Assembly (NCBI GenBank): GCA_027459705.1 | Contig: DAIDHM010000023.1 | Span: 1 to 33,134 of the forward strand | DNA length: 33,134 nt | Source: Ktedonobacteria bacterium | Lineage (GTDB): Bacteria > Chloroflexota > Ktedonobacteria > Ktedonobacterales > JACDGC01 | Direction: 5' to 3' | Part shown: piece by piece, positions 1-31,652 of the stretch | Numbering within the stretch: position 1 is the first letter of the stretch | How the letters are laid out: each line of letters opens with the position of its first letter | Made by a program: the position numbers and the translations under genes | The notes under the pieces: generated by a model | What the model saw: the letters and a program-made list of their open reading frames with translations, nothing else | Databases searched by the model: none | Told to the model about the DNA's origin: nothing

Positions 1-761
1 ACTGGTTTGAGTTTGACTACCCCATTATCAGTTGGTTGTTTTTGATACAGGATTCCAGGAAGATTAATGTCTTTTTCCCCGTTTACTAAACGTTCCAGTA
101 AAAGCGGAGCAACTGTGTCACCTTCACCCAAACACACTGCATCGATAAAGAAGAAATTTTCTAGTAAACTTGCCCCCATTGATGTTTCGCAATTTGCTCC
201 GCCGAAGACGATCTTTACATGAGGAAACCGTTTTTTGAGAAGCTTGGCTAATGAGAGAGATGGTATCTGTTGTTGAAACATAGTTGTAAAACCAATGACC
301 CGATACTGCTCCCAAGGATATGCCTTTAGCACCCAATTGAGAAAGTGCATCGTTTTTTGGCGCTGCTCGACCAAGACATGAATCTGTTGCTCTGAAATAA
401 CTCCATCATTTCCAACTTCATTTCCTGCTGGCAAGGCATTGTCATCTGGAACTTGTGTAAGTATCTCGGCTATATACTTTTCATCGGTTTTAGGCAAATA
501 TCCATAGAGAGGAAACGTAAACAGCCATTCTCCCGTCAAATCAGTGTTGTTTGGATATCCTAAAGATAGGGCACGATATAACTCAGGATCACACCACTCG
601 CCATAGGCAAGATTCAAATATAGGATATCAGATGCAAAGCCTCTATCCGTCAAGGCTGCTTTTATCAAGCTCAGCCCAATAGTTGGCATATAATGCGAAG
701 CAAAGGGCATATTCACCAATGCAATTTGTGCCAATTCTTGTTTCTGCCTCATTTTTTCCAT
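1..761 (-). CDS. RiPP maturation radical SAM enzyme, B12-binding N-terminal part (runs off left edge)
   Basis: About 253 codons are open from an ATG at 761 to the window edge with no stop. The start has an AAGGGAG ribosome site about 9 nt upstream and lies 30 nt below the permease stop. The visible part matches the N-terminus of the RiPP-maturation radical SAM family 1 (B12-binding plus radical SAM): an opening VALVNMPF-like strand (here IALVNMPFASHYMPTIGLS), then ILYLNLAYGEW, LTGEWLFTFPLYGY, GFTTMFQQQIPSLSLAKLL, and the hallmark FGGANCETSMG followed by VCLGEGD. The radical SAM CxxxCxxC segment should lie outside the window. Such enzymes modify ribosomal precursor peptides, often by C-methylation. 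It is the last visible gene of a minus-strand run with an exporter and a candidate precursor. Base composition is AT-rich compared with the rest of the window. Family assignment is confident; the exact reaction is not known. Confidence 0.85.
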   Translation of the reverse strand, partial: MEKMRQKQELAQIALVNMPFASHYMPTIGLSLIKAALTDRGFASDILYLNLAYGEWCDPELYRALSLGYPNNTDLTGEWLFTFPLYGYLPKTDEKYIAEILTQVPDDNALPAGNEVGNDGVISEQQIHVLVEQRQKTMHFLNWVLKAYPWEQYRVIGFTTMFQQQIPSLSLAKLLKKRFPHVKIVFGGANCETSMGASLLENFFFIDAVCLGEGDTVAPLLLERLVNGEKDINLPGILYQKQPTDNGVVKLKP

Positions 762-791
762 CCACTTAACTCCCTTGGCACCTTCTTTTGC

Positions 792-1568
792 TTATCCTCT
801 TTGTAAACCTGCCAAGTCCGCCCTTGGAAGAATATACTGAGCAAAGGCGTAGAGGACTGCGGCACATAAAAGTAAGATGCCTGCGTTTGCGGCCATACCT
901 CCCCAACTTCCAATATAAGCTAGCCGCAAGCTATTTGCCTGATATGTTAAAGGATTAAGCGTGCTTAATACCTTGAGAAAAGTCGGGGCATTATCAACGC
1001 TATATAAAGCGGTTGAAGAAAAAACAACAGGCAAAACAACGACACTGCTAATGAGATCCCTGGTTCCGTAGTCACGAATAAGGGTGCCAATGATAGCTCC
1101 TAGGCAAGACCAAAACAAGACACCGGGAATAGAAACTATGGCCATAATCAGGCCGGGCAGTAGAACAAACGGTCCAATCACTACTAGTCCTGTAAAGATC
1201 AGTAGAACCCATTGGGCTAACATATAAATCCAAGCGTTTACCCCTCGAGCCAGTAAATATTCTAAAGGAGACAAGCCAGTTAATACAAACAATCGATACA
1301 TACCCCACTTTACATCGTTCGAGCTTGTAAATATTAGATAGGGAAACACGCGAAAACTCTGTATGGCCACAAGCCCAGCAAACAGAAACTGTTGATACGT
1401 AAGCAAGTGGCCGTTTACTGTTTGGGATCCCACAAGCCTTGAAAATCCTGCACCAAACAGCACCAGATAGAGAACTGACTCTATCAAGATAATATAATAA
1501 GAGCGGCGCCAGTTAATAAATGACCAGATCTTTGCTTGCGTGAGCACAGCAATTTTGTTGAAGTCCAT
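792..1568 (-). CDS. ABC-2 type transporter permease
   Basis: The 258-residue product has about six hydrophobic segments, beginning near residue 24 (YYIILIESVLYLVLFGAGF) and ending near residue 245, with the conserved stretch LNPLTYQANSLRLAYIG near residue 205 that is typical of ABC-2 exporter permeases. The ATG follows the stop of the ATPase gene after one base and has a GGGGGAG ribosome site inside the end of that gene, so the two are translationally coupled. It should form the membrane channel of an exporter with the upstream ATPase. The position between a candidate precursor peptide and a RiPP maturase suggests export of, or immunity to, the modified peptide. That role is inferred from context only. 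Confidence 0.88.
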   Translation of the reverse strand: MDFNKIAVLTQAKIWSFINWRRSYYIILIESVLYLVLFGAGFSRLVGSQTVNGHLLTYQQFLFAGLVAIQSFRVFPYLIFTSSNDVKWGMYRLFVLTGLSPLEYLLARGVNAWIYMLAQWVLLIFTGLVVIGPFVLLPGLIMAIVSIPGVLFWSCLGAIIGTLIRDYGTRDLISSVVVLPVVFSSTALYSVDNAPTFLKVLSTLNPLTYQANSLRLAYIGSWGGMAANAGILLLCAAVLYAFAQYILPRADLAGLQRG

Positions 1569-1569
1569 T

Positions 1570-2508
1570 CTACTCCCCCGCTTCTTTGCTAGCCAGCTCG
1601 ACGAATGCTTGCCGTAAAGTTGGCTGTTCGACGACGAACGATGCTAAATCATAACCGTTTCCCATGAAAGGTGCCAGCAAAGACAAAAGAGTACTTCCTG
1701 CATTTACCCCGCTAATCGTTAGCGGATCTTTTTTCAATACCTTCAATCCACTTTGTTCAATATTCGCAATGAGATTAAATGGCACTGCTGTTTTTGATTG
1801 AATGATGACCCGCTCCTCTAACCGAAAATGCTGGATAGCACAAGAAACCGATCCATCAAATATTTTTCTACCCTTATTTATAAAAACTAATCGATCACAA
1901 GCGTTTTGAATTTCCTCCATAACATTCGATGCAAGAATAATTGTCATGCCATGAGACGCACAGTCTTTTAAAAAGCCTAGTACTTTATCGACACCGATAG
2001 GATCGAGACCTACAGTCGGCTCATCAACAAAAAGGATTTGAGCAGGGAACAAAAAGGCACGTGCCAATTGGACTCGACGTATTTGACCACCGGAGAGTTC
2101 TTCCATTGAATCGTTACGCTTTTCAGCCAAATCAAGCATATCAAGCAGCGCTTCCACACGCTGTGCAGCATGTGAAAGTTTAAGAAGTTTAGCAAAAACC
2201 ATCAAATTCTGTGCAACTGTTAAGGACCAGTCGATCGATTCATATTGAGGTACAAGACCTATTCTTTTTCGAATTTGAGCATTTTCTCGTAATAAATCAA
2301 AACCCAATATTTTTCCGGTTCCAGATGTTGGTCTAAACGAGGTAGTAAGGAGGTTGATAGTAGTGGTTTTCCCGCTACCATTTGGACCAATAAGACCTAC
2401 TATTTGCCCCATCACGATTTTTAGGGTCAACTCGCGTACCGCTTCAACTCCGTTTGGATAGCGCTTGCTTAGCGATTGCACGTCAATCGGATCGATTTTG
2501 ACTGTCAC
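1570..2508 (-). CDS. ABC transporter ATP-binding protein
   Basis: The 312-residue product is a DrrA/CcmA-type ATPase. Walker A GPNGSGKTT is at residues 41-49, the Q-loop VPQYE near 86-90, the signature LSGGQ at 138-142, Walker B ILFVDEPT near 158-165, and D-loop GLDP follows. A C-terminal regulatory extension of about 90 residues is usual for this group. The start is GTG at 2508, chosen because AGGAGA sits 6 nt upstream and overlaps the stop of the preceding ORF. An ATG-based alternative would lose the N-terminal strand. It pairs with the adjacent permease, and the coupling implies a two-gene exporter. The substrate is unknown; location in a RiPP-like operon suggests a peptide. Confidence 0.92.
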   Translation of the reverse strand: MTVKIDPIDVQSLSKRYPNGVEAVRELTLKIVMGQIVGLIGPNGSGKTTTINLLTTSFRPTSGTGKILGFDLLRENAQIRKRIGLVPQYESIDWSLTVAQNLMVFAKLLKLSHAAQRVEALLDMLDLAEKRNDSMEELSGGQIRRVQLARAFLFPAQILFVDEPTVGLDPIGVDKVLGFLKDCASHGMTIILASNVMEEIQNACDRLVFINKGRKIFDGSVSCAIQHFRLEERVIIQSKTAVPFNLIANIEQSGLKVLKKDPLTISGVNAGSTLLSLLAPFMGNGYDLASFVVEQPTLRQAFVELASKEAGE

Positions 2509-2518
2509 GGTTTTTCTC

Positions 2519-2860
2519 CTATTTATGCCCTATTATTTCATCGAGTTTGCAACAGGCCCAATCAAGATCACTAATATCCAATTGGTAGAACGCAATGCTC
2601 GATGTCAACTTTGTAGCGTAGTTTATCACCTGGGCCGCTTCCAAGCCTGAAGCGATAATTTGTGGCAGTAGCTGAATGAGGGCTTCTGAATTGGAAAGCA
2701 TCATCTCATTCTTCCCACTGCTCCGACAAAGCATAAAGCATGCTTTGAGGAAAACTGATGAATGATTACTATAGCAAAAAGGAAAAATATCATCAAGGTG
2801 AATGAGCCAAGTTTTCGGGCTCGTCCCATATGCTTCGAAGCATAAGGAACGTTGGAGCAA
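2519..2860 (-). CDS. Unrecognised 113-residue protein in the RiPP-like operon
   Basis: I do not recognise this protein. It ends 10 nt before the GTG of the ATPase gene, with its stop codon overlapping that gene's ribosome site, which is the main support for a real coding region. The only candidate start is TTG at 2860, preceded by a weak AGCAGGG. The same frame stays open upstream to a TGA near 2905, so the start is uncertain, and an ATG in another frame at about 2902 could mean a frameshift. The product is rich in Cys (about six), has a hydrophobic middle (QLLPQIIASGLEAAQVI) and an acidic end (DISDLDWACCKLDEIIG). Options are a RiPP accessory or immunity protein, or a decayed gene. Confidence 0.42.
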   Translation of the reverse strand: MLQRSLCFEAYGTSPKTWLIHLDDIFPFCYSNHSSVFLKACFMLCRSSGKNEMMLSNSEALIQLLPQIIASGLEAAQVINYATKLTSSIAFYQLDISDLDWACCKLDEIIGHK

Positions 2861-2944
2861 GCCCTGCTGTAATTCAGAAAATAATCGATGCCTTTTTGGA
2901 GGCTTTCATACTACGTGAACTATTGGCATTCAGATGAATCTCTG

Positions 2945-3121
2945 CTAATGGATGCGCCCGCCATGACACCCACTGGCATAAAGTGAAGATTCAATACTCA
3001 AAAGCTTTGGCCACTGTGACTGAAGTTCTGTAAGAGGAACTACTTTGATGTGCGGCTTTTCCCACTTCTGTTTGGGCTTTTGAACATCGTGCTTGCTGAT
3101 AGGTTGCGTTTCTTCTTTCAT
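2945..3121 (-). CDS. Candidate RiPP precursor peptide (58 residues)
   Basis: A short ORF begins with ATG at 3121 behind a strong AGGAAGGA ribosome site (6 nt spacing) and ends with TAG at 2945-2947. The N-terminal part looks like a RiPP leader: charged and Lys-rich, with the motif QKWEKPHIKVVPLTEL around residues 18-33, resembling the W-x-KP-x-hydrophobic leader segments seen in several RiPP classes. The C-terminus is short and distinctive, LYASGCHGGRIH, with a single Cys, two Gly-Gly-type turns and two His, a plausible modified core. It is the first gene below a good promoter and lies upstream of an exporter and a RiPP-type radical SAM enzyme. It was found by reading the sequence because it is too short for usual ORF cut-offs. 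The assignment as precursor is inference from size, leader style and context. Confidence 0.6.
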   Translation of the reverse strand: MKEETQPISKHDVQKPKQKWEKPHIKVVPLTELQSQWPKLLSIESSLYASGCHGGRIH

Positions 3122-3263
3122 GTTTGTTCCTTCCTGTGACGTATCACGTTGATAGTAGCATTACCCGCTATTTAGGTAATAAAAACTCCAATCGTGAAAA
3201 CGGACCTCAGAAGCCGATCAGGTCTAAATAAATCCATATTGCGCATTAAATACCAAGTCATGA

Positions 3264-3280
3264 GAGCATTGTAAATGCTC
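3264..3280. promoter_or_regulatory. Perfect inverted repeat in the leader of the RiPP-like operon (possible operator)
   Basis: GAGCATT and AATGCTC form perfect 7-bp arms around a 3-nt centre. The site lies about 30-47 nt downstream of the predicted transcription start, where a repressor could block the promoter. No regulator gene is visible next to it. Confidence 0.35.
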
Positions 3281-3317
3281 CCGTTCTAAATGCGAAAAGA
3301 ATTCATTCGCTGTAGCT

Positions 3318-3346
3318 AGCATACCACGGGAAGCGAGTATTGTCAA
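3318..3346 (-). promoter_or_regulatory. Sigma70-type promoter of the RiPP-like operon
   Basis: Read on the minus strand, TTGACA (3346-3341) is followed after exactly 17 nt by TATGCT (3323-3318). Transcription would start near 3311, leaving a leader of about 190 nt before the precursor ATG at 3121. It is one of the two best promoter matches in the window. Confidence 0.75.
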
Positions 3347-3360
3347 TCCTATTTCATAAG

Positions 3361-3377
3361 GAATGAGTTCAGAGTTG
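3361..3377 (+). repeat. IS66 left terminal inverted repeat
   Basis: GAATGAGTTCAGAGTTG matches 15 of 17 bases with the inverted copy at 4753-4769. It overlaps the last codons and stop of the transposase gene. Confidence 0.75.
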
Positions 3378-4721
3378 GGGTAAAGGACTTTGTAAAAGGC
3401 GTAGGATCTCGTGGTAAACGTTGTTGGCTTTGGCCTGGCAGGTCTGGACGACGGAGGCGAGGATCATGTGGGTATCGCTGCCTACCTTGGAGCGGGAGCC
3501 GCCGGAAATTTTGCGGGTGACGACCAGAGGCCGGACCATGCGTTCTGCGTGGTTGTTATCCGGCTCGACGCCTGGGGCTGTGAGAAAGACGAGGAGTTCG
3601 CCTTGGTAGCGGAGGAGCCGTTTGGCCAAGGTCTGGCAGGGATGACCCTTTTCGCCTCCATATTGCTGGCCCAGTTCGCGGATCTGCCGTTCGCCGTGTT
3701 CGCGTTGGGTACGGCGAACCGCTTCGGCATGGGGACGGATCGCCACGGCCTCGTCATAGACCTGGCGCACGGCCATAGCCCAGGCGCGGACGTCTTCGCG
3801 ATTGGGGTGCAGCTCCTTGAGCTTATGCAGATCCCGCAGCAAATGCACCCAGCAGCGCTGGTGCTTGCCGCCAGGAGTATCGTTGTACCCGGCGTAGAAA
3901 TCGGTGGTCAAGACGCCGGTGAAGTCCTCCCCGAGCAAGTCATCAATGATCTTCCCGCTCCGAGAGGCATGCCGTTCAAAGTACCAATCGCCTTCCGGGG
4001 TGCCCATGCCCCAGATGTACCCGTTGCGGCCATCTTCCCGCCACCCCGTCTCGTCGGCGTTGACCGCCGGGCTCCCGCGAACGCGGTTGCGGATCTGTTC
4101 GGCCACCGGCTTGAGGTGATGGGCCGTGCGCTGAAGCAAATCCGTGATGGCTCCCAGGCTGAGGGGCATCTGATGCATCGTCGCTAGCCAGTGCTGAATC
4201 AGACGGATGGGGAGGCGTAAGGCCATCCGCATCGTCGTGATGGTTGCCGCCAGCCGCACCCCAATACGGCCTTGGCCGACCACCTGATCGTGCAGATCGA
4301 GAGACGCTTCCCGCCATTTGCGACCATACGAACACCACCCGCGTTGGATCTGATGCTCGATGACTTCCACCGGCGGCGGCGGAGCGATCTCAATCACTTG
4401 GCGCGTGCGGCCCACCTGCACGCTACTCAAGTGCCCGTGACACTCCGGACACTCGGTGATCGGGTGGTCAACGACCTGGATGGGCGTCGCACTCCGGCGC
4501 CGGGCGTGGTTGTGCTCAGGCGCGCGTTTCTTGCGCACCGCTTTGGGCTTCTCGGGCTTGTTCGCTTTCACAAAGGGCGGCGGCGGCGTTTTCTGCCCTT
4601 CCAGTTCCTCTATGCGTTGCTGGGCTATCGCAAGGGCTGTGCTGAGTTGCACCACTTGGGTACGTAACTCGTGCATTTCCGCCTGGATTGCTTGCCATTC
4701 GTCTTCAGTGATCGTAACCAT
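3369..4721 (-). CDS. tnpC: IS66 family transposase
   Basis: The 450-residue product shows the usual IS66 layout. A coiled coil or leucine zipper lies at about residues 15-42. A zinc-finger-like region has Cys91 and Cys94 (CPEC) and Cys130, but the expected fourth Cys is replaced (CSYG), so the finger may be imperfect. The DDE catalytic residues are Asp223 in NADETGW, Asp274 in TTDFYAGY and Glu393 in NNHAERMVRP. A conserved tail follows (KISGGSRS, then the QTCQAKANN region). It catalyses transposition of the surrounding element. The reading frame is intact, so it could be active. The ATG at 4721 is the natural start; the opposite strand carries long but meaningless GC-rich open frames. Confidence 0.95.
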   Translation of the reverse strand: MVTITEDEWQAIQAEMHELRTQVVQLSTALAIAQQRIEELEGQKTPPPPFVKANKPEKPKAVRKKRAPEHNHARRRSATPIQVVDHPITECPECHGHLSSVQVGRTRQVIEIAPPPPVEVIEHQIQRGWCSYGRKWREASLDLHDQVVGQGRIGVRLAATITTMRMALRLPIRLIQHWLATMHQMPLSLGAITDLLQRTAHHLKPVAEQIRNRVRGSPAVNADETGWREDGRNGYIWGMGTPEGDWYFERHASRSGKIIDDLLGEDFTGVLTTDFYAGYNDTPGGKHQRCWVHLLRDLHKLKELHPNREDVRAWAMAVRQVYDEAVAIRPHAEAVRRTQREHGERQIRELGQQYGGEKGHPCQTLAKRLLRYQGELLVFLTAPGVEPDNNHAERMVRPLVVTRKISGGSRSKVGSDTHMILASVVQTCQAKANNVYHEILRLLQSPLPQL

Positions 4722-4752
4722 GGGAACAGTTTATCAGCTTTTTCTCAACGGT

Positions 4753-4769
4753 CAAGTCTGAACTCGTTC
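4753..4769 (-). repeat. IS66 right terminal inverted repeat
   Basis: Read inward on the minus strand it is GAACGAGTTCAGACTTG, 15 of 17 identical to the left end. It lies 32 nt upstream of the transposase start. Confidence 0.75.
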
Positions 4770-5068
4770 TAAGCATCTAAGGTATAGGCTTTTAACGTTA
4801 AGTTTTGGGAATGTCGCTTAAACGTGTTCGGACAATGTTGCGAATGTTAACAACATGCATCAAGTACAAAGTAAGCATCACCCGAAGCAACTATGAAATG
4901 GAAGACACAGTTGTATATCAACTGTGTCTTCCAAGCATCTAAGCTTACAAGAGGTGACAGATCTTCCATCGCGTACCATAAATCACACGAAGCAGTCGTG
5001 AGCAAGAACCCTCCTAAACAATGCATCTCGACTGGATCCAATGGGCTTTGGAATCAGACCGCTTGTGG
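4770..5068. other. Gene-free stretch between IS66 and the hydroxylase operon
   Basis: No convincing gene is seen. The stretch starts with AAGCATCTAAG at 4771-4781, right beside the IS66 end, and the same 11 bases recur at 4933-4943, just after a long hairpin. The 162-bp unit between the repeats is AT-rich like the left island. It could be the remnant of a small non-autonomous element or a recombination scar. Confidence 0.4.
4899..4933 (-). terminator. Long perfect hairpin, possible terminator of the hydroxylase operon
   Basis: Arms of 15 bp (TGGAAGACACAGTTG and its complement) enclose a 5-nt TATAT loop with no mismatch. It lies 136 nt past the end of the minus-strand FeS subunit gene. Only a poor T-run (ATTTCAT) follows on that strand, so termination is possible but not certain; it may instead belong to a mobile-element remnant. 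Confidence 0.4.
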
Positions 5069-25014: not shown

Positions 25015-25617
25015 TTATGTTTCGGTCATAGCTGCCAGAATCATCGCCGTAGTCGGCTGATCGGCCGTGCGCAATGAACGATGGATAAAGCGGATCGTTC
25101 CAGAGGAATCGACGCCAAAGACCCCACCGAGTTGCAGCATATCTTGATCGGTGGCGGCCACACCATAGCGTGGGAGGCGGCTGAGCGTCTTGATGACCGA
25201 ATCTGGGCTGGTAACCTCACGCAGCACATTCAACCGATAGACCAGTCCATAGGCCTGGTAAGATGCTCGACTGGGATCTGCCAGCACCGTGAAAGGCAGA
25301 TCGAATTCCGCGCGAAATTGACGGGCACGCTCCGGCTCGCCCAATCCGATCATGATCACCTGGACTTTGGCGCGTTGAAAACGTTGGCGATCGCGGCGCA
25401 ACTGCACCGCCTGTGCGCGGCAATGCATTCACCCAAAATGGCGCAAGAAGACAAACGCGGTTGGCATCTGTTGCCAGCATTGCGAAAACGCGACCACCTC
25501 ACCATCTTGATTTGGCAAAGTGAGATCCGGCGCTGGATCGCCGAGGTTCAACGTCATGTCTGCGATCTCCATGGTATTCATTGGACAAGTTCTCTCTTTG
25601 TTATCTTGCCGGTTCAT
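25015..25617 (-). CDS. Peroxiredoxin-like protein with in-frame TGA (candidate selenoprotein)
   Basis: Two open frames, 25617-25429 and 25428-25015, are one gene in one frame split only by TGA at 25431-25429. The text reads VFLRHFG-(TGA)-MHCRAQAVQLRRD, while AhpC/TSA-like relatives have FLRHFGC-x-x-C there, so TGA stands exactly at the first Cys of the CxxC site. Selenocysteine would give UxxC. The rest is well kept: NLGDPAPDLTLPNQDG at the start, VQVIMIGLGEPERA, FDLPFTVLADPSRASYQAYGL, and QLGGVFGVDSSGTIRFIHRS. A bacterial SECIS-like hairpin follows (separate entry). The ATG at 25617 overlaps the MeaB stop (ATGA); ATG 25581 is an alternative. If Sec is not inserted it is a pseudogene by one nonsense mutation. 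selA/B/C/D are not in the window. Confidence 0.6.
25397..25431 (-). promoter_or_regulatory. Candidate bacterial SECIS element after the in-frame TGA
   Basis: After TGA (25431-25429) come 16 nt, then the loop AGGCG (25412-25408) closed by GCAC/GTGC, with CGC/GCG below after a 4-nt bulge on the 3' side. The E. coli fdhF element has a similar spacing (17 nt) and an AGGU-type loop. It meets the usual bacterial rule of a G within the first two loop bases, 16-37 nt from UGA. Confidence 0.5.
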
Positions 25618-26576
25618 GGCAAGCCGATTGTCCGCAAAATTTCATCGGTCGCGGCGTAGGGATCGCTACCACGCGCAGCTACTTCCGCGATCAACGCGGC
25701 GAGTCTATCGGGTCCCACCCGCGTATCGACACGTCGCATCAACTCCTGGTAGAGCAAGGCCTGAATCTCACTGCGCGCCTGGCGCTCGCCTCGGGCTACA
25801 ATCTGTCCCGTTTGGCGTAAGAACGCCAGATGTTCCGCCAGTGCGTCCACCAGTTCCGCTACGCCGCTGCCCTGCATGGCGACGGTTTTGACGATCGGTG
25901 GTCGCCAGTCGTTTGGACCACGCTGGGCATCAAGACTCAAGAGAATGCGCAGCTCAGCCGCCGCCTGATCCGCGCCGGGGCGATCGGCTTTGTTGACGCA
26001 AAAAACATCGGCGATCTCCAGGATGCCCGCTTTGAGCGCCTGAATGTCGTCACCCATCCCTGGCACTGTCACAACCACGATGCTCTGTGCCGCCCGCACG
26101 ATCTCCACCTCGGCCTGGCCGGCGCCAACCGTCTCGATGATGATCTGGTCGAAGTGCGCGGCGTCCAGGGCCCGCGCGACATCGCGCGTCGTGCTGGCAA
26201 GGCCACCGACGCTGCCGCGACTGGCCATCGATCGTATATACACATTGGAATCACCAGCCAGATCTTGCATGCGAATACGGTCACCTAAAATCGCCCCGCC
26301 CGTGAACGGACTCGTGGGATCCACGGCAATGATCGCGACCCGCTGGCAGCGCTGGCGCAGGACGCGCGCGAGTTGCGTGACCAGGGTTGATTTGCCAGCG
26401 CCAGGCGAACCGGTGACGCCGATCACATGCGCATGTCCACCCAGGCGGTGCAACGCCGCCAGCGCCGGACGGGCATCCGGCGCGCCATTCTCGATCAGAC
26501 TGATGAGTCGCGCCAACGCCCGGCGATCGCCATTCGTGACTCGCGCGACCAGATCCATCGTCAGGTCCGCGTTCAC
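25614..26576 (-). CDS. meaB: MeaB/ArgK-type G3E GTPase, methylmalonyl-CoA mutase chaperone
   Basis: The 320-residue product has Walker [10 protein letters not shown] at 56-64, [23 protein letters not shown] near 81-103, the [39 protein letters not shown] block (split here into its halves: [12 protein letters not shown] and [15 protein letters not shown]), Walker B-like [24 protein letters not shown] and the base motif NKAD at 195-198. Such proteins guard and reload the B12 cofactor of acyl-CoA mutases. The start is GTG at 26576, overlapping the stop of the B12-subunit gene by 4 bp; ATG 26558 is an alternative. Its stop overlaps the next gene's ATG. It forms a coupled operon with the mutase subunit. 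Confidence 0.93.
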
Positions 26577-27103
26577 GCCTCTGACCCCGTTCCTGGCTCC
26601 GCACTCGAAGCATCCTCACGAGCCAGCGGTGCCAGCGGATGACTCAGTCTTTCTGCCGCGACGTGATCGCGAACAAATTGAATGATTGTCTGAGTGCTGG
26701 TCCCCGGCCCGAAGTTGCCTTTGATGCCCATCGCCGCAATCGCCGGAATATCCTCATCGGGAATGATGCCGCCCGCGACGACCAGAATATCTGACATCCC
26801 ATTGGTCCGCAACAGTTCCATAATCTTCGGGAAGATCGCCATGTGGGCACCCGAGAGGATACTCAGTAAGATCGCATCGACATCTTCCTGGATCGCGGCT
26901 TCAACGATCATCGACGGTGTCTGACGAATACCAGTATAAATGACTTCCATACCCGCATCACGCAAAGCCCGCGCGATAACCTTCGCGCCGCGATCATGTC
27001 CATCGAGTCCTGGCTTGGCAACCAGGACCCGCAGGCGGCGTTCGCCCGTACCAGGGTGCGCCTGGGGTGTCGCATCTAGAGCGGTAGGTGGTTGGTCTGT
27101 CAT
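26573..27103 (-). CDS. B12-binding small subunit of an acyl-CoA (methylmalonyl-CoA type) mutase
   Basis: From ATG 27103 the product has 176 residues: a short disordered start, then [33 protein letters not shown] with the cobalamin-binding DGHDRG motif, [20 protein letters not shown], and [22 protein letters not shown]. The tail is an unusual 30-residue extension. It binds the lower-ligand-off form of adenosylcobalamin and completes a two-part mutase. The frame is open to an ATG at 27181, which could add 26 residues. The large catalytic subunit that should sit upstream is not there: an ISKra4 remnant begins 45 nt above 27181. MeaB follows with overlap. Confidence 0.88.
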
Positions 27104-27225
27104 TGTCCAGCGGATCCCCGCAACCTTGGCAGCGCGGCGGATCCTGCCCTCCTTCACGCGAATCTGTGCAATCGTTCGCATTGTACCCCGCAGATGGGGG
27201 AATGGGCAAGGCTTGCCAATCCGAT

Positions 27226-28689: not shown

Positions 28690-29112
28690 TTAATGGATTA
28701 CATCATGGTGGCTAGCAATGATCGCCCGTCGTTCATCCACACGGATCGGGGCATTGAATACCAGTAGCCTGACCGTTGCTCTTCCTGGTCCAGTGAGCGG
28801 CTGAATGATGGCTCCCATCAATCGGAAATGCCGATTCCACCGTTGGGTTCGTGGATGAAATAATGGAACGATCTTCCCGGTCTCTGGATCTATTGAAGAG
28901 ATATTAGGTCCTTTATAGTGATTGCATGCAAAGCAAGACCAGGCAAGGTTCTCAATCTCCGTGAGTCCACCATGTTGTTCAGCGATAATATGATCCGCTT
29001 CATGAGAGAGCAGTACCATATCATCCGGTAACAGGCAATATTCGCACCGTCCTTGGGCACGTTCTCGTACCTGGATTCGCAGGCGTTCAGGAATGGTTTT
29101 CCTGCTTGCCAT
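28690..29112 (-). CDS. HNH endonuclease
   Basis: The 140-residue product is an intact HNH protein: a basic helical start (PERLRIQVRERAQGRCEYC), zinc Cys pair CEYC near residues 23-26 and CFAC near 60-63, the catalytic EADHIIAEQHGG block, ENLAWSCFACNHYKG, then a C-terminal domain with LFHPRTQRWNRHFR. It should cut DNA non-specifically or at sites. The ATG at 29112 follows the stop of the 82-residue gene after one base, so the two are translationally coupled. It sits inside the Hint-cassette region, and could be a free-standing nuclease toxin; no Hint is fused to it. Confidence 0.9.
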   Translation of the reverse strand: MASRKTIPERLRIQVRERAQGRCEYCLLPDDMVLLSHEADHIIAEQHGGLTEIENLAWSCFACNHYKGPNISSIDPETGKIVPLFHPRTQRWNRHFRLMGAIIQPLTGPGRATVRLLVFNAPIRVDERRAIIASHHDVIH

Positions 29113-29113
29113 A

Positions 29114-29362
29114 TTACGAGGCTCGCTGATGCAGTTTACGATGCGCTTCGGCCTTCGCTAAAATCATGATATGTTGGACAAGCAGATAGGTCTCGATCTC
29201 TTGTCGTTCTGCCTCGGTGAGAGCGCGTTCACGTTCCGCGTCGATTAAGGCATAGGCACGTTCGTTCGCGGCATCGGATGCTGTGAATGCCAGGATCTGT
29301 TCAGCAGTGGGCTGGCTGGCGATAAAGAGTGCGAGGTCACGAGTGAGTTGTACATCCAGCAT
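29114..29362 (-). CDS. Small helical protein paired with the HNH gene
   Basis: The 82-residue product is almost wholly helical and charged (LALFIASQPTAEQILAFTAS, then ERAYALIDAERERALTEAERQEIETYLLVQHI). Pairs of such a small helical gene and an HNH nuclease gene are common in cyanobacteria and Chloroflexota. It may serve as antitoxin or control protein for the nuclease, but this has not been shown for it. GGAAGGGTGG precedes the ATG. It ends one base before the HNH start, a sign of coupled production. Confidence 0.72.
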   Translation of the reverse strand: MLDVQLTRDLALFIASQPTAEQILAFTASDAANERAYALIDAERERALTEAERQEIETYLLVQHIMILAKAEAHRKLHQRAS

Positions 29363-29423
29363 AGGCCACCCTTCCTTTCGTTGGATGAGATGGAGCGAGA
29401 CGTATGAGATCGCGCAAAGACGG

Positions 29424-29565
29424 TCAGAATCTGATGAATCGCCATTTCTCCTCGACCCACTGATCGCCGCCGACCAGGTAGGTGTGCAGATCCTGCACGG
29501 TGAGATTATACCGCACCGCCGCGCCGGGGGTCACCCCGACCGCCGTGACCACGCCCAGGCTACCA
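29424..29565 (-). pseudogene. Hint module copy B (C-terminal fragment)
   Basis: Only the end of the module remains: GSLGVVTAVGVTPGAAVRYNLTV, DLHTYLVGGDQWV. Instead of the normal VVHN cleavage site it runs into EEKWRFIRF and stops at TGA 29426-29424. The first residues overlap the last ones of copy A, but the bases differ slightly, so A and B are not two halves of one copy. It has no own start. Confidence 0.75.
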
Positions 29566-29592
29566 AATCAACCTAGCTCGAACTCATGTTAT

Positions 29593-29970
29593 TTATGCAA
29601 TTTCTGTAGGCTCACCATACTTACTAAATTTTGCCATCCAGCCATCCTCAGTGAATAGTTCTCCATGCATGCCATCGCTCAAAGCAATGATATTTACATT
29701 ATCGATATTAATCTGAATATTTCCAGTATTTTCATAATATTCTTGTAGTGTGAACAAAAAATCATGAACCGCTGCATCAATTGAAGCAATAATACAACGC
29801 TTGATTAATGAAATTTGCTGTTCATCTAATTTCGATAAGTCTTCTTGTAAGAATTTTACCCTTGAAGAGATTATAGCTCCTTTGGCAAGAAGCTCAAAAT
29901 ACCCTATTCCCTGATCTCTGCAATGGACCATGAGAAGTTTTCCAAATGTATCTAGCAGGTTTTTATCCAT
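29593..29970 (-). CDS. Probable orphan immunity protein
   Basis: The 125-residue product is encoded by strikingly AT-rich DNA (about one-third GC), unlike the flanks, as is usual for imported toxin-immunity genes. It starts with a helix-rich half (LLDTFGKLLMVHCRDQGIGYFELLAKG), has IISSRVKFLQEDLSKLDEQ, and ends with strands VNIIALSDGMHGELFTEDGWMAKFSKYGEP. GAGGAAG lies 5 nt before the ATG. It sits between Hint copies in the cassette array with no toxin gene directly upstream, so the toxin has been lost or lies outside. The role is inferred from size, composition and position. Confidence 0.6.
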   Translation of the reverse strand: MDKNLLDTFGKLLMVHCRDQGIGYFELLAKGAIISSRVKFLQEDLSKLDEQQISLIKRCIIASIDAAVHDFLFTLQEYYENTGNIQINIDNVNIIALSDGMHGELFTEDGWMAKFSKYGEPTEIA

Positions 29971-30731
29971 TTTTTCTTCCTCGTTTATTTGCTTCGAACA
30001 TCCTCAAGATTCATCAGGGATTCTTTTCCCAATTCATGAAGACGGATTTCTACCAGTCATTGTGTGTTGAGAGTTCCCACAACCTCCTCACTTGTGGACG
30101 TTGGGAAGGTATTTCAATTGCTTACCTTCTTCGCCATTTCACAAGGAAACGCGCTAACATGAACCATATTTCAGGTAAGTCTCTGACTTGAGTGAACTCC
30201 TATGATAATTGTGACGCATTGGCTCTCCCCAGTCGAGGAGCGGGTATACTTGGATCAACCAGAGGATGTAACGAAAATGATGTACACCATCCAGCCAGCG
30301 ACCCCACCGGCCCCAAGTGTGTACTTAATGCATGGCCAAGCTGTTTCGGTCTGCCCGACCATACAGAAAGTCAATCTGCTCATGAAATTGGTTCCATGAG
30401 GAAAGAATTGCACTGGCTGACGCCTCGCTTCGCTACACTTCACCGCCAGTATAGCATAAGCATACACGAACGTCATGAGCACTCGTATCGCTACCAGGGC
30501 CTTTTCAAAGTCGCAGATCAGATGGAATCTGGCAGAGAACTGTCTGACCAGTGATCGCGCTAACGCTGGCCAAACGTCACATAGCCAGCTTCTGTTTCTC
30601 GTCTAAGCAAGTTCAAAACGGACTTTGAAAACCCCCTGGTGTCGCTACAGTAATGACGTTTGCTTCCATCATTTCAAATACCAGGATGTATCGCGCCTAT
30701 TTAATGAAAACTTGGTGACGAGGTAAATGCA
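29971..30731. other. 761-bp stretch without a convincing gene
   Basis: Small open frames on both strands (for example plus 30192-30554) have no ribosome site and no family features. The position, between a toxin stop and an orphan immunity gene, is where the toxin C immunity gene would be expected; decayed remains may lie here, but I cannot read them. Confidence 0.4.
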
Positions 30732-31652
30732 TCAACCCCAAGGTATTCTTGTTGGACCATATACCCCCATAGCTTGTAGGTTCCTCAAGGAACGATCCAC
30801 TAAATCTTGAGCTTCCTGTGCTGGAACATTCCCAGCCAATAACGCCTCATAGGCTATAGCATTATGTTCCGCCATAGTATTTGTCCTAATCCCATTGCTG
30901 ACATCGTCTGAAAGTTGGCGGAAAAGCTTCCTTTGAGTGTTTGTTATTGCTTGATGGTCGATTGGTCCACCGGTCCTCGTTAAATCACCATCCCCAATTG
31001 CAATCGCCTCTCGAGGATTATAGTTCGGATCCCCAACAAAAGCAGATTGGGCATGAATGTGATGTCCTCCTACATCTTTGTATGCCCCAACGTTTTGACA
31101 AATGGTATTATGCACGACCCACTGGTCGGCGCCGACCAGGTAGGTGTGCAGGTCCTGCACGGTGAGATTATACCGCACCGCCGCGCCGGGCACCACCCCG
31201 ACCGCCGTGACCACACCCTCGCTGACGTCGCCCCGCACCACCTGCTCGCCCACCCGCAGCGTCTGCGCCGCCACGAAGCCACGATCCGCCGTGAGGAACG
31301 GGTGCTCCGTCGTCGTGTGCAGCGTCTCGGGCATGCCCAGCGCGCTGGGGGGAGGCCGCGGCGCGTGGTTGGCCGCGATGGCTTCGGATGCCGTCGTGCG
31401 CGTGTTGCTGGCAGCAGTCGTGGGAGCGGGCTGCTTCAGGGGCGCGATCGTCACATCCAGCAGGTTCGTATCGTGGTTGATGAAGACGTGCTGCACCGTC
31501 TTGGCTTGCGTCTTCCCTGTGGCCGTGTTGTACGCCAGCACCTGGTCGCCCACGTGCAAGGTCCCGATGGCTTGCTCGCCGTGCGGGGTCGCCACCAGCG
31601 TTGCTGGAGCGAAGCTATTGCCACACTGAATGGTTGAATCCGCCAGACTCCG
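30732..31652 (-). CDS. Hint module copy C fused to a HHxH-type toxin domain (5'-truncated cassette)
   Basis: The frame is open from a TAG at 31655-31653 to 30732. GTG 31595 is the only usual start, and no N-terminal delivery module is attached, so this looks like a silent C-terminal cassette. The Hint active site is whole: Ser of NSFAPATLV stands where Cys1 is usual, TEHP at about residues 96-99 (numbered from 31595), and the HN cleavage site at 162-163 (WVVHN). The toxin starts right after HN with GGHHIHAQSAF (176-186), NPREAIAIGDGDL, HQAITNTQRKLFRQL, TMAEHNAIAYEAL and SLRNLQAMGVYGPTRIPW. This pattern occurs as a C-terminal toxin of Rhs and related proteins; nuclease activity is likely but not proven. 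Confidence 0.78.
   Translation of the reverse strand, partial: RSLADSTIQCGNSFAPATLVATPHGEQAIGTLHVGDQVLAYNTATGKTQAKTVQHVFINHDTNLLDVTIAPLKQPAPTTAASNTRTTASEAIAANHAPRPPPSALGMPETLHTTTEHPFLTADRGFVAAQTLRVGEQVVRGDVSEGVVTAVGVVPGAAVRYNLTVQDLHTYLVGADQWVVHNTICQNVGAYKDVGGHHIHAQSAFVGDPNYNPREAIAIGDGDLTRTGGPIDHQAITNTQRKLFRQLSDDVSNGIRTNTMAEHNAIAYEALLAGNVPAQEAQDLVDRSLRNLQAMGVYGPTRIPWG

Follow-up and report, generated by a model that had tools for sequence, protein, structure and literature searches.

What does the AT-rich block at the left end of this contig make, and what is the substrate of its central enzyme? The window, by which we mean the whole stretch of 33,134 nucleotides analysed here, comes from a member of the Ktedonobacteria; its base 1 is the end of the contig (C142), and a gene for a B12-binding radical SAM enzyme is cut there. 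We favour, at a probability of about 0.65, a horizontally acquired RiPP operon in which a 58-residue precursor would be methylated by this enzyme, altered in a redox step by a short-chain dehydrogenase (SDR) and exported by a DrrAB-type pair (Table 1).

Table 1. Features of the island and its borders (positions refer to the window unless contig C69 is named).
Feature	Position	Strand	Support or remark
B12-binding radical SAM C-methyltransferase, N-terminal half	1..761 (gene 3-761)	-	TIGR03975 model 1-218
DrrB-type ABC-2 permease	792..1568	-	PF01061 over cut-off
DrrA-type ABC exporter ATPase	1570..2508	-	PF00005 over cut-off
61-aa small protein, C-terminal part of 113-aa ORF	2519..2704	-	ATG 2704, GGAAG upstream
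Hairpin within the 240-bp gap after the 58-aa ORF	2822..2851	-	15-nt inverted repeat, 87% complementary
58-aa candidate RiPP precursor, MKEETQPISKHDVQKPKQKWEKPHIKVVPLTELQSQWPKLLSIESSLYASGCHGGRIH	2945..3121	-	Shine–Dalgarno AGGAAGG before ATG
Candidate promoter, TTGACA-17-TATGCT, extended -10 (TG before -10)	3318..3346	-	consensus match only
IS66-type insertion sequence	3361..4769	-	transposase 3369-4721, PF03050 E=1.2e-45
171-bp repeat R, outer left island boundary	4773..4943	+	second copy C69:4067-4237
Short-chain dehydrogenase (SDR)	C69:2077-2808		PF13561 E=1.3e-50

A search of the genome itself with the TIGR03975 model returned two places, the left end of the window and the very start of contig C69, which belongs to the same assembly. 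The missing half of the gene occupies C69:1-1203 and alone matches model positions 233-606 at 432 bits, over the cut-off. The reverse complement of window positions 1-14 is identical to C69 1-14 (aaactcaaaccagt), an exact 14-bp overlap across which the reading frame is unbroken, and the halves match successive parts of a single TIGR03975 model. With some 490 contig ends, a coincidence of this length would not be expected, but assembly overlaps are usually longer than 14 bp. Once joined, the protein has 652 residues and scores 615.9 bits (curated cut-off, 281.85) over model positions 1-606 of 606.

TIGR03975 (rSAM_ocin_1) is a family of RiPP maturation radical SAM C-methyltransferases, and the first-pass annotation had named this class from the N-terminus alone. 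The profiles bear it out: the runner-up family is ApyD at 73 bits, all other B12-radical SAM families score 73 bits or less, and those outside RiPP biosynthesis 71 bits or less, with weak similarity to HpnJ and BchE. The N-terminal domain is of B12-binding type by profile (PF02310, 39 bits; cut-off, 32.1). Of the proposed hallmarks LTGEWLF and FGGANCE, GEW.F and FGGA occupy columns that hardly vary among family members, and the near-invariant columns are kept in this protein. The radical SAM domain predicted beyond the left edge is indeed there, on C69, with a cysteine motif of the form CX7CX2C (CWWGAKLHCTFCGL, CWWGAKLHCTFCGLN) instead of the anticipated CxxxCxxC; the spacing is identical in 17 of 17 aligned relatives, and the surrounding CWWG....CTFCGLN is conserved among them. 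Two findings had been named as fatal to the RiPP reading, a missing radical SAM domain and a best match outside the RiPP families; both were looked into and neither was found.

The enzyme is a TIGR03975 member with a motif of PoyB/PoyC type. This unconventional motif has been reported for PoyB, PoyC and the bottromycin methyltransferases, and PoyC has been shown to methylate a peptide at the C-beta of valine (PMC11285071, PMC5682303). The likeness to the two polytheonamide C-beta methyltransferases is one of architecture (B12-binding plus radical SAM) and motif (PMC11285071, PMC5682303); their system differs from the present operon, which has neither an NHLP precursor nor an epimerase partner. 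From the family and the motif we infer that the enzyme methylates a peptide, which applies to both reaction and substrate; it would add one or more methyl groups to unactivated peptide carbons.

In the direction of transcription, the operon comprises the 58-residue open reading frame (ORF), the 61-residue ORF, the ATPase, the permease and the radical SAM gene, and then the SDR gene on C69. The order from the short ORF to the radical SAM gene is that first described, with exporter and radical SAM genes tightly spaced on the minus strand (1 bp separates the ATPase stop from the permease gene); the operon had been taken to end at the radical SAM gene, and the SDR gene now extends it. The promoter that had been placed ahead of the block has a candidate at 3346-3318, the top score of the region (10/12). 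That it is the single one is less clear, given a second, weak promoter-like site ahead of the 61-residue ORF (2796-2768); the region holds 10 promoter-like sites, and 6.7 are expected in shuffles. The 240-bp gap between the two small ORFs folds with z = -2.1, and its hairpin is possibly an mRNA stabiliser or processing site. Rfam gave no match inside the island, and no RRE domain, leader peptidase or immunity gene was recognised in the operon.

Scored for codon use against the sure genes of the island, the 58-residue ORF is matched or beaten by 1.1% of wrong-frame and 98% of true-frame stretches, an intermediate result that favours a gene only moderately. The encoded peptide has a charged N-terminal part, a W-x-x-P-x-I stretch, which we liken to the bound segment of lasso-peptide leaders, and a short Gly/Cys-rich C-terminal end, SSLYASGCHGGRIH. 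Because of these three features, and because its ORF comes first in the operon and has the best Shine–Dalgarno sequence, it is most likely the substrate of the radical SAM enzyme; the first-pass annotation had likewise proposed the short leading ORF as precursor, a role that its position and layout continue to suggest. The leader would comprise the first 35-45 residues, W-x-x-P-x-I included, and the core the C-terminal stretch ending SSLYASGCHGGRIH.

Neither Pfam nor NCBIfam matches the peptide at E ≤ 1, and it has no recognised leader (NHLP, Nif11, Os1348, lasso and others), an absence that does not exclude a RiPP. No homologue was found among 400 Chloroflexota genomes. For the 58- and 61-residue ORFs together, Pfam and NCBIfam gave no hits, PHROGs returned nothing under E = 0.19, and PDB sequences, plasmids and 300-400 Chloroflexota genomes returned nothing beyond noise. 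Weak matches in Cupriavidus and in genome G007 appeared to be chance, one being an unannotated high-GC frame and the other a frame with a stop.

The RiPP operon could be real and the 58-residue peptide not its substrate, the precursor being instead the 61-residue protein or a product encoded elsewhere in the genome; we regard this as rather unlikely. The 61-residue protein is what remains of the 113-residue protein annotated at first. The TTG start of the longer ORF lacks support, and the first 52 residues have a codon score below 99.9% of true-frame stretches, so the protein probably begins at the internal ATG; the 61-residue end scores inside the range of true genes (11% of true-frame stretches are as low). 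This codon score is more island-like than that of the 58-residue ORF, and homologues are lacking for both (among 301 genomes for the 61-residue protein). Moreover, the precursors of related enzymes carry leaders of NHLP, Nif11 or pheganomycin type, and the 58-residue peptide has none. Against this stand the place of the 58-residue ORF directly after the promoter, its ribosome-binding site and its charged, leader-like part followed by the Gly/Cys-rich end, whereas the 61-residue protein looks compact and helical, without a core-like tail, in a low-confidence single-sequence prediction (three helices; pLDDT, 67) that is too weak for a fold search.

If the 58-residue peptide is the precursor, it may tentatively be viewed as a new precursor type for PoyB/PoyC-like methyltransferases, with a W-x-x-P-x-I leader and a Gly/Cys/His-rich C terminus (GCHGGRIH) that would be methylated and then processed by the SDR, without an NHLP or Nif11 leader or a known leader-binding domain. 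At this locus the enzyme family is known and the combination of genes unfamiliar, and the presumed peptide substrate matches nothing in the sets searched. In this family, precursors with recognised leaders are easily found, and those without are missed by annotation. Methylation of the 58-residue peptide would make the peptide, the methyltransferase and the SDR a very small system for studying radical methylation of unactivated carbons, and would add a leader type for which other genomes could be searched.

Between the radical SAM gene and the SDR gene lies an insertion of the IS5 family, with a transposase matching NF033580, terminal repeats at C69:1201-1223 and 2042-2064, and CTAG on both sides. 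With the flanks joined at CTAG, the radical SAM protein ends ENLILGG-stop, and an AGGAGG just before the stop lies 8 nt before the GTG of the SDR gene. Because the joined flanks place the ribosome-binding site of the SDR at the radical SAM stop, the two genes appear to have been directly coupled before the insertion. The best NCBIfam matches of the SDR, to the glucose 1-dehydrogenase and FabG types, are below cut-off; our guess for its role is a redox reaction on the peptide. An SDR two genes past a radical SAM gene in Pyxidicoccus is 28% identical, which we judge to be coincidental.

The insertion swaps the last two radical SAM codons for 15 others read from the element and may reduce expression of the SDR, and the operon may therefore be decaying. 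That it is already a non-functional remnant is, in our view, unlikely: three insertion elements do lie within about 9 kb, one of them at the 3' end of the radical SAM gene, from which it splits off the SDR, but no stop or frameshift interrupts the ATPase, permease, joined radical SAM or SDR gene. The radical SAM enzyme may still work, because the change falls after the last family-model position (residue 630 of 652).

For a working RiPP operon built around the 58-residue peptide, export would fall to the ABC pair. It shares with the daunorubicin-type DrrAB exporters the arrangement of an ATPase gene and an ABC-2 permease gene, and differs from them in scoring under both NCBIfam cut-offs: the ATPase, which starts at a GTG with AGGAG, reaches 222.1 bits with TIGR01188 (cut-off, 312.45), and the permease 60 bits with TIGR01247 (cut-off, 223.05). 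The pair probably works like DrrAB, although it is not filed as such by score; it would export the product and may give self-protection. An ABC pair on a Planococcus plasmid (35% identity in the permease), also in a small-protein-plus-ABC order, was set aside for its unrelated small protein and the lack of a radical SAM gene nearby.

The neighbourhoods of related enzymes bear on the general role. Relatives lie beside a pheganomycin-family precursor and a PGM1-type peptide ligase, an Os1348/NHLP peptide, Nif11 precursors and an epimerase, and a RiPP with cysteine at every fifth position; in other Chloroflexota, including genome G137, NHLP-type peptides lie beside radical SAM genes. Since these relatives adjoin RiPP precursors, the RiPP reading of the operon appears well supported, with peptide methylation as the probable general role. 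It is very improbable that the substrate is instead a small molecule or lipid and the operon a resistance or lipid cassette with a linked exporter, for although DrrAB-type exporters and FabG-like SDRs are also known in non-peptide pathways and HpnJ and BchE are weakly similar, TIGR03975 stands at 616 bits, against 73 at most for the other B12-radical SAM families, and the annotated relatives adjoin RiPP precursors.

A search of 400 sampled Chloroflexota genomes and a plasmid collection turned up no second instance of this gene set. The TIGR03975 members compared are 26-40% identical to the window enzyme, and those examined in detail lack its neighbourhood; a single-protein scan of genome contigs returned only four distant radical SAM proteins. 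The closest enzyme found overall (40% identity) is on a plasmid of Niallia sp. XMNu-256 (NZ_CP137637.1), where a 56-residue peptide of another type follows and no DrrAB or SDR gene is annotated adjacent. A pheganomycin-type cluster on a Streptomyces globosus plasmid also has a TIGR03975 gene beside a very short precursor, and differs in its PGM1-related ligase, amidinotransferase and Dpg genes, none of which the window operon has. The comparison with other Ktedonobacteria proposed at first yielded TIGR03975 enzymes in three Ktedonobacterales genomes (G030, G043 and G045; 33-35% identity) and not this gene set; their clusters have tandem peptides of 60-76 residues with GHGV-type cores, an M16-type peptidase half, an HTH gene and an MFS-like gene.

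These tandem peptides, two or three after the radical SAM gene (L015 11933-13157 in G045, L016 12217-12877 in G043 and L018 11591-12109 in G030; for example, ...ITLDPSKFTISEDGKVILTAPEFADALRAAADDDENSGHGVGVAVIW), are without a match in Pfam, and the one run against NCBIfam gave none there either; they look like a precursor family not yet curated, whose leader differs from that of the window peptide. Genome G317 has a similar set with one 55-residue peptide (L036 5582-8920). The Niallia 56-residue peptide (L039 9923-10093, VKRKVEIKLTSDDFYITPRGEVVINN...), directly after its radical SAM gene, resembles the leader part of the Ktedonobacterales peptides and has a counterpart in G317, a small frame just after the radical SAM gene (L036 9398-9493; 40% over 35 residues).

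On both contigs the operon genes have about 38-46% GC (about 42% across the island, 42-43% in its window part), against roughly 54-63% (about 58%) in neighbouring host genes, so that the block is AT-rich as first noted. The IS66 copy reported at its edge is present, upstream of the promoter and outside the precursor end, with 17-nt terminal inverted repeats (3361-3377/4753-4769); another element, presumably of ISAs1 type to judge from its ends and transposase sequence, lies outside the SDR end (C69 about 2868-4065). At an E ≤ 1e-60, TIGR03975 matches occur in 10 of 400 Chloroflexota genomes, our own included; the host's family has five other genomes, all without such a match. In a tree of 18 sequences, a small sample in which it has a long branch, the window enzyme pairs with the Niallia (Bacillota) plasmid protein (support, 95/91), and the Ktedonobacterales copies form a separate branch. 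Composition, insertion elements, absence from the family's other genomes and this grouping together support acquisition, as the first-pass annotation held, and an origin outside the host's family is well supported.

The two 171-bp repeats are 98% identical, lie directly outside both insertion elements and are inverted in the joined map; a search of the assembly and of 60 relatives turned up no further full copy. Each has a terminal hairpin of 15-16 bp, the arms of which differ between the copies by a matched change, and GCATCTAAG at both ends; the repeat is perhaps a MITE-like element. A cut-short IS5-type transposase frame starts just outside the second copy (C69 4238-4400), which suggests that the downstream flank on C69 was struck by several insertions. 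Further along C69 (5460-5628), a match to Rfam RF02819 (V_AS7) below the gathering score, antisense in an oxidoreductase gene, is probably shared coding sequence and not RNA.

The host encodes a cobalamin adenosyltransferase, and window positions 25614-27181 hold genes whose translations look like MeaB and a B12-binding mutase subunit; for these reasons the host likely uses B12. Two related genes with pretoxin HINT domains (PF07591; 28147-28632 and 30732-31595) look like polymorphic-toxin ends and surround an AT-richer stretch at about 29000-31000.
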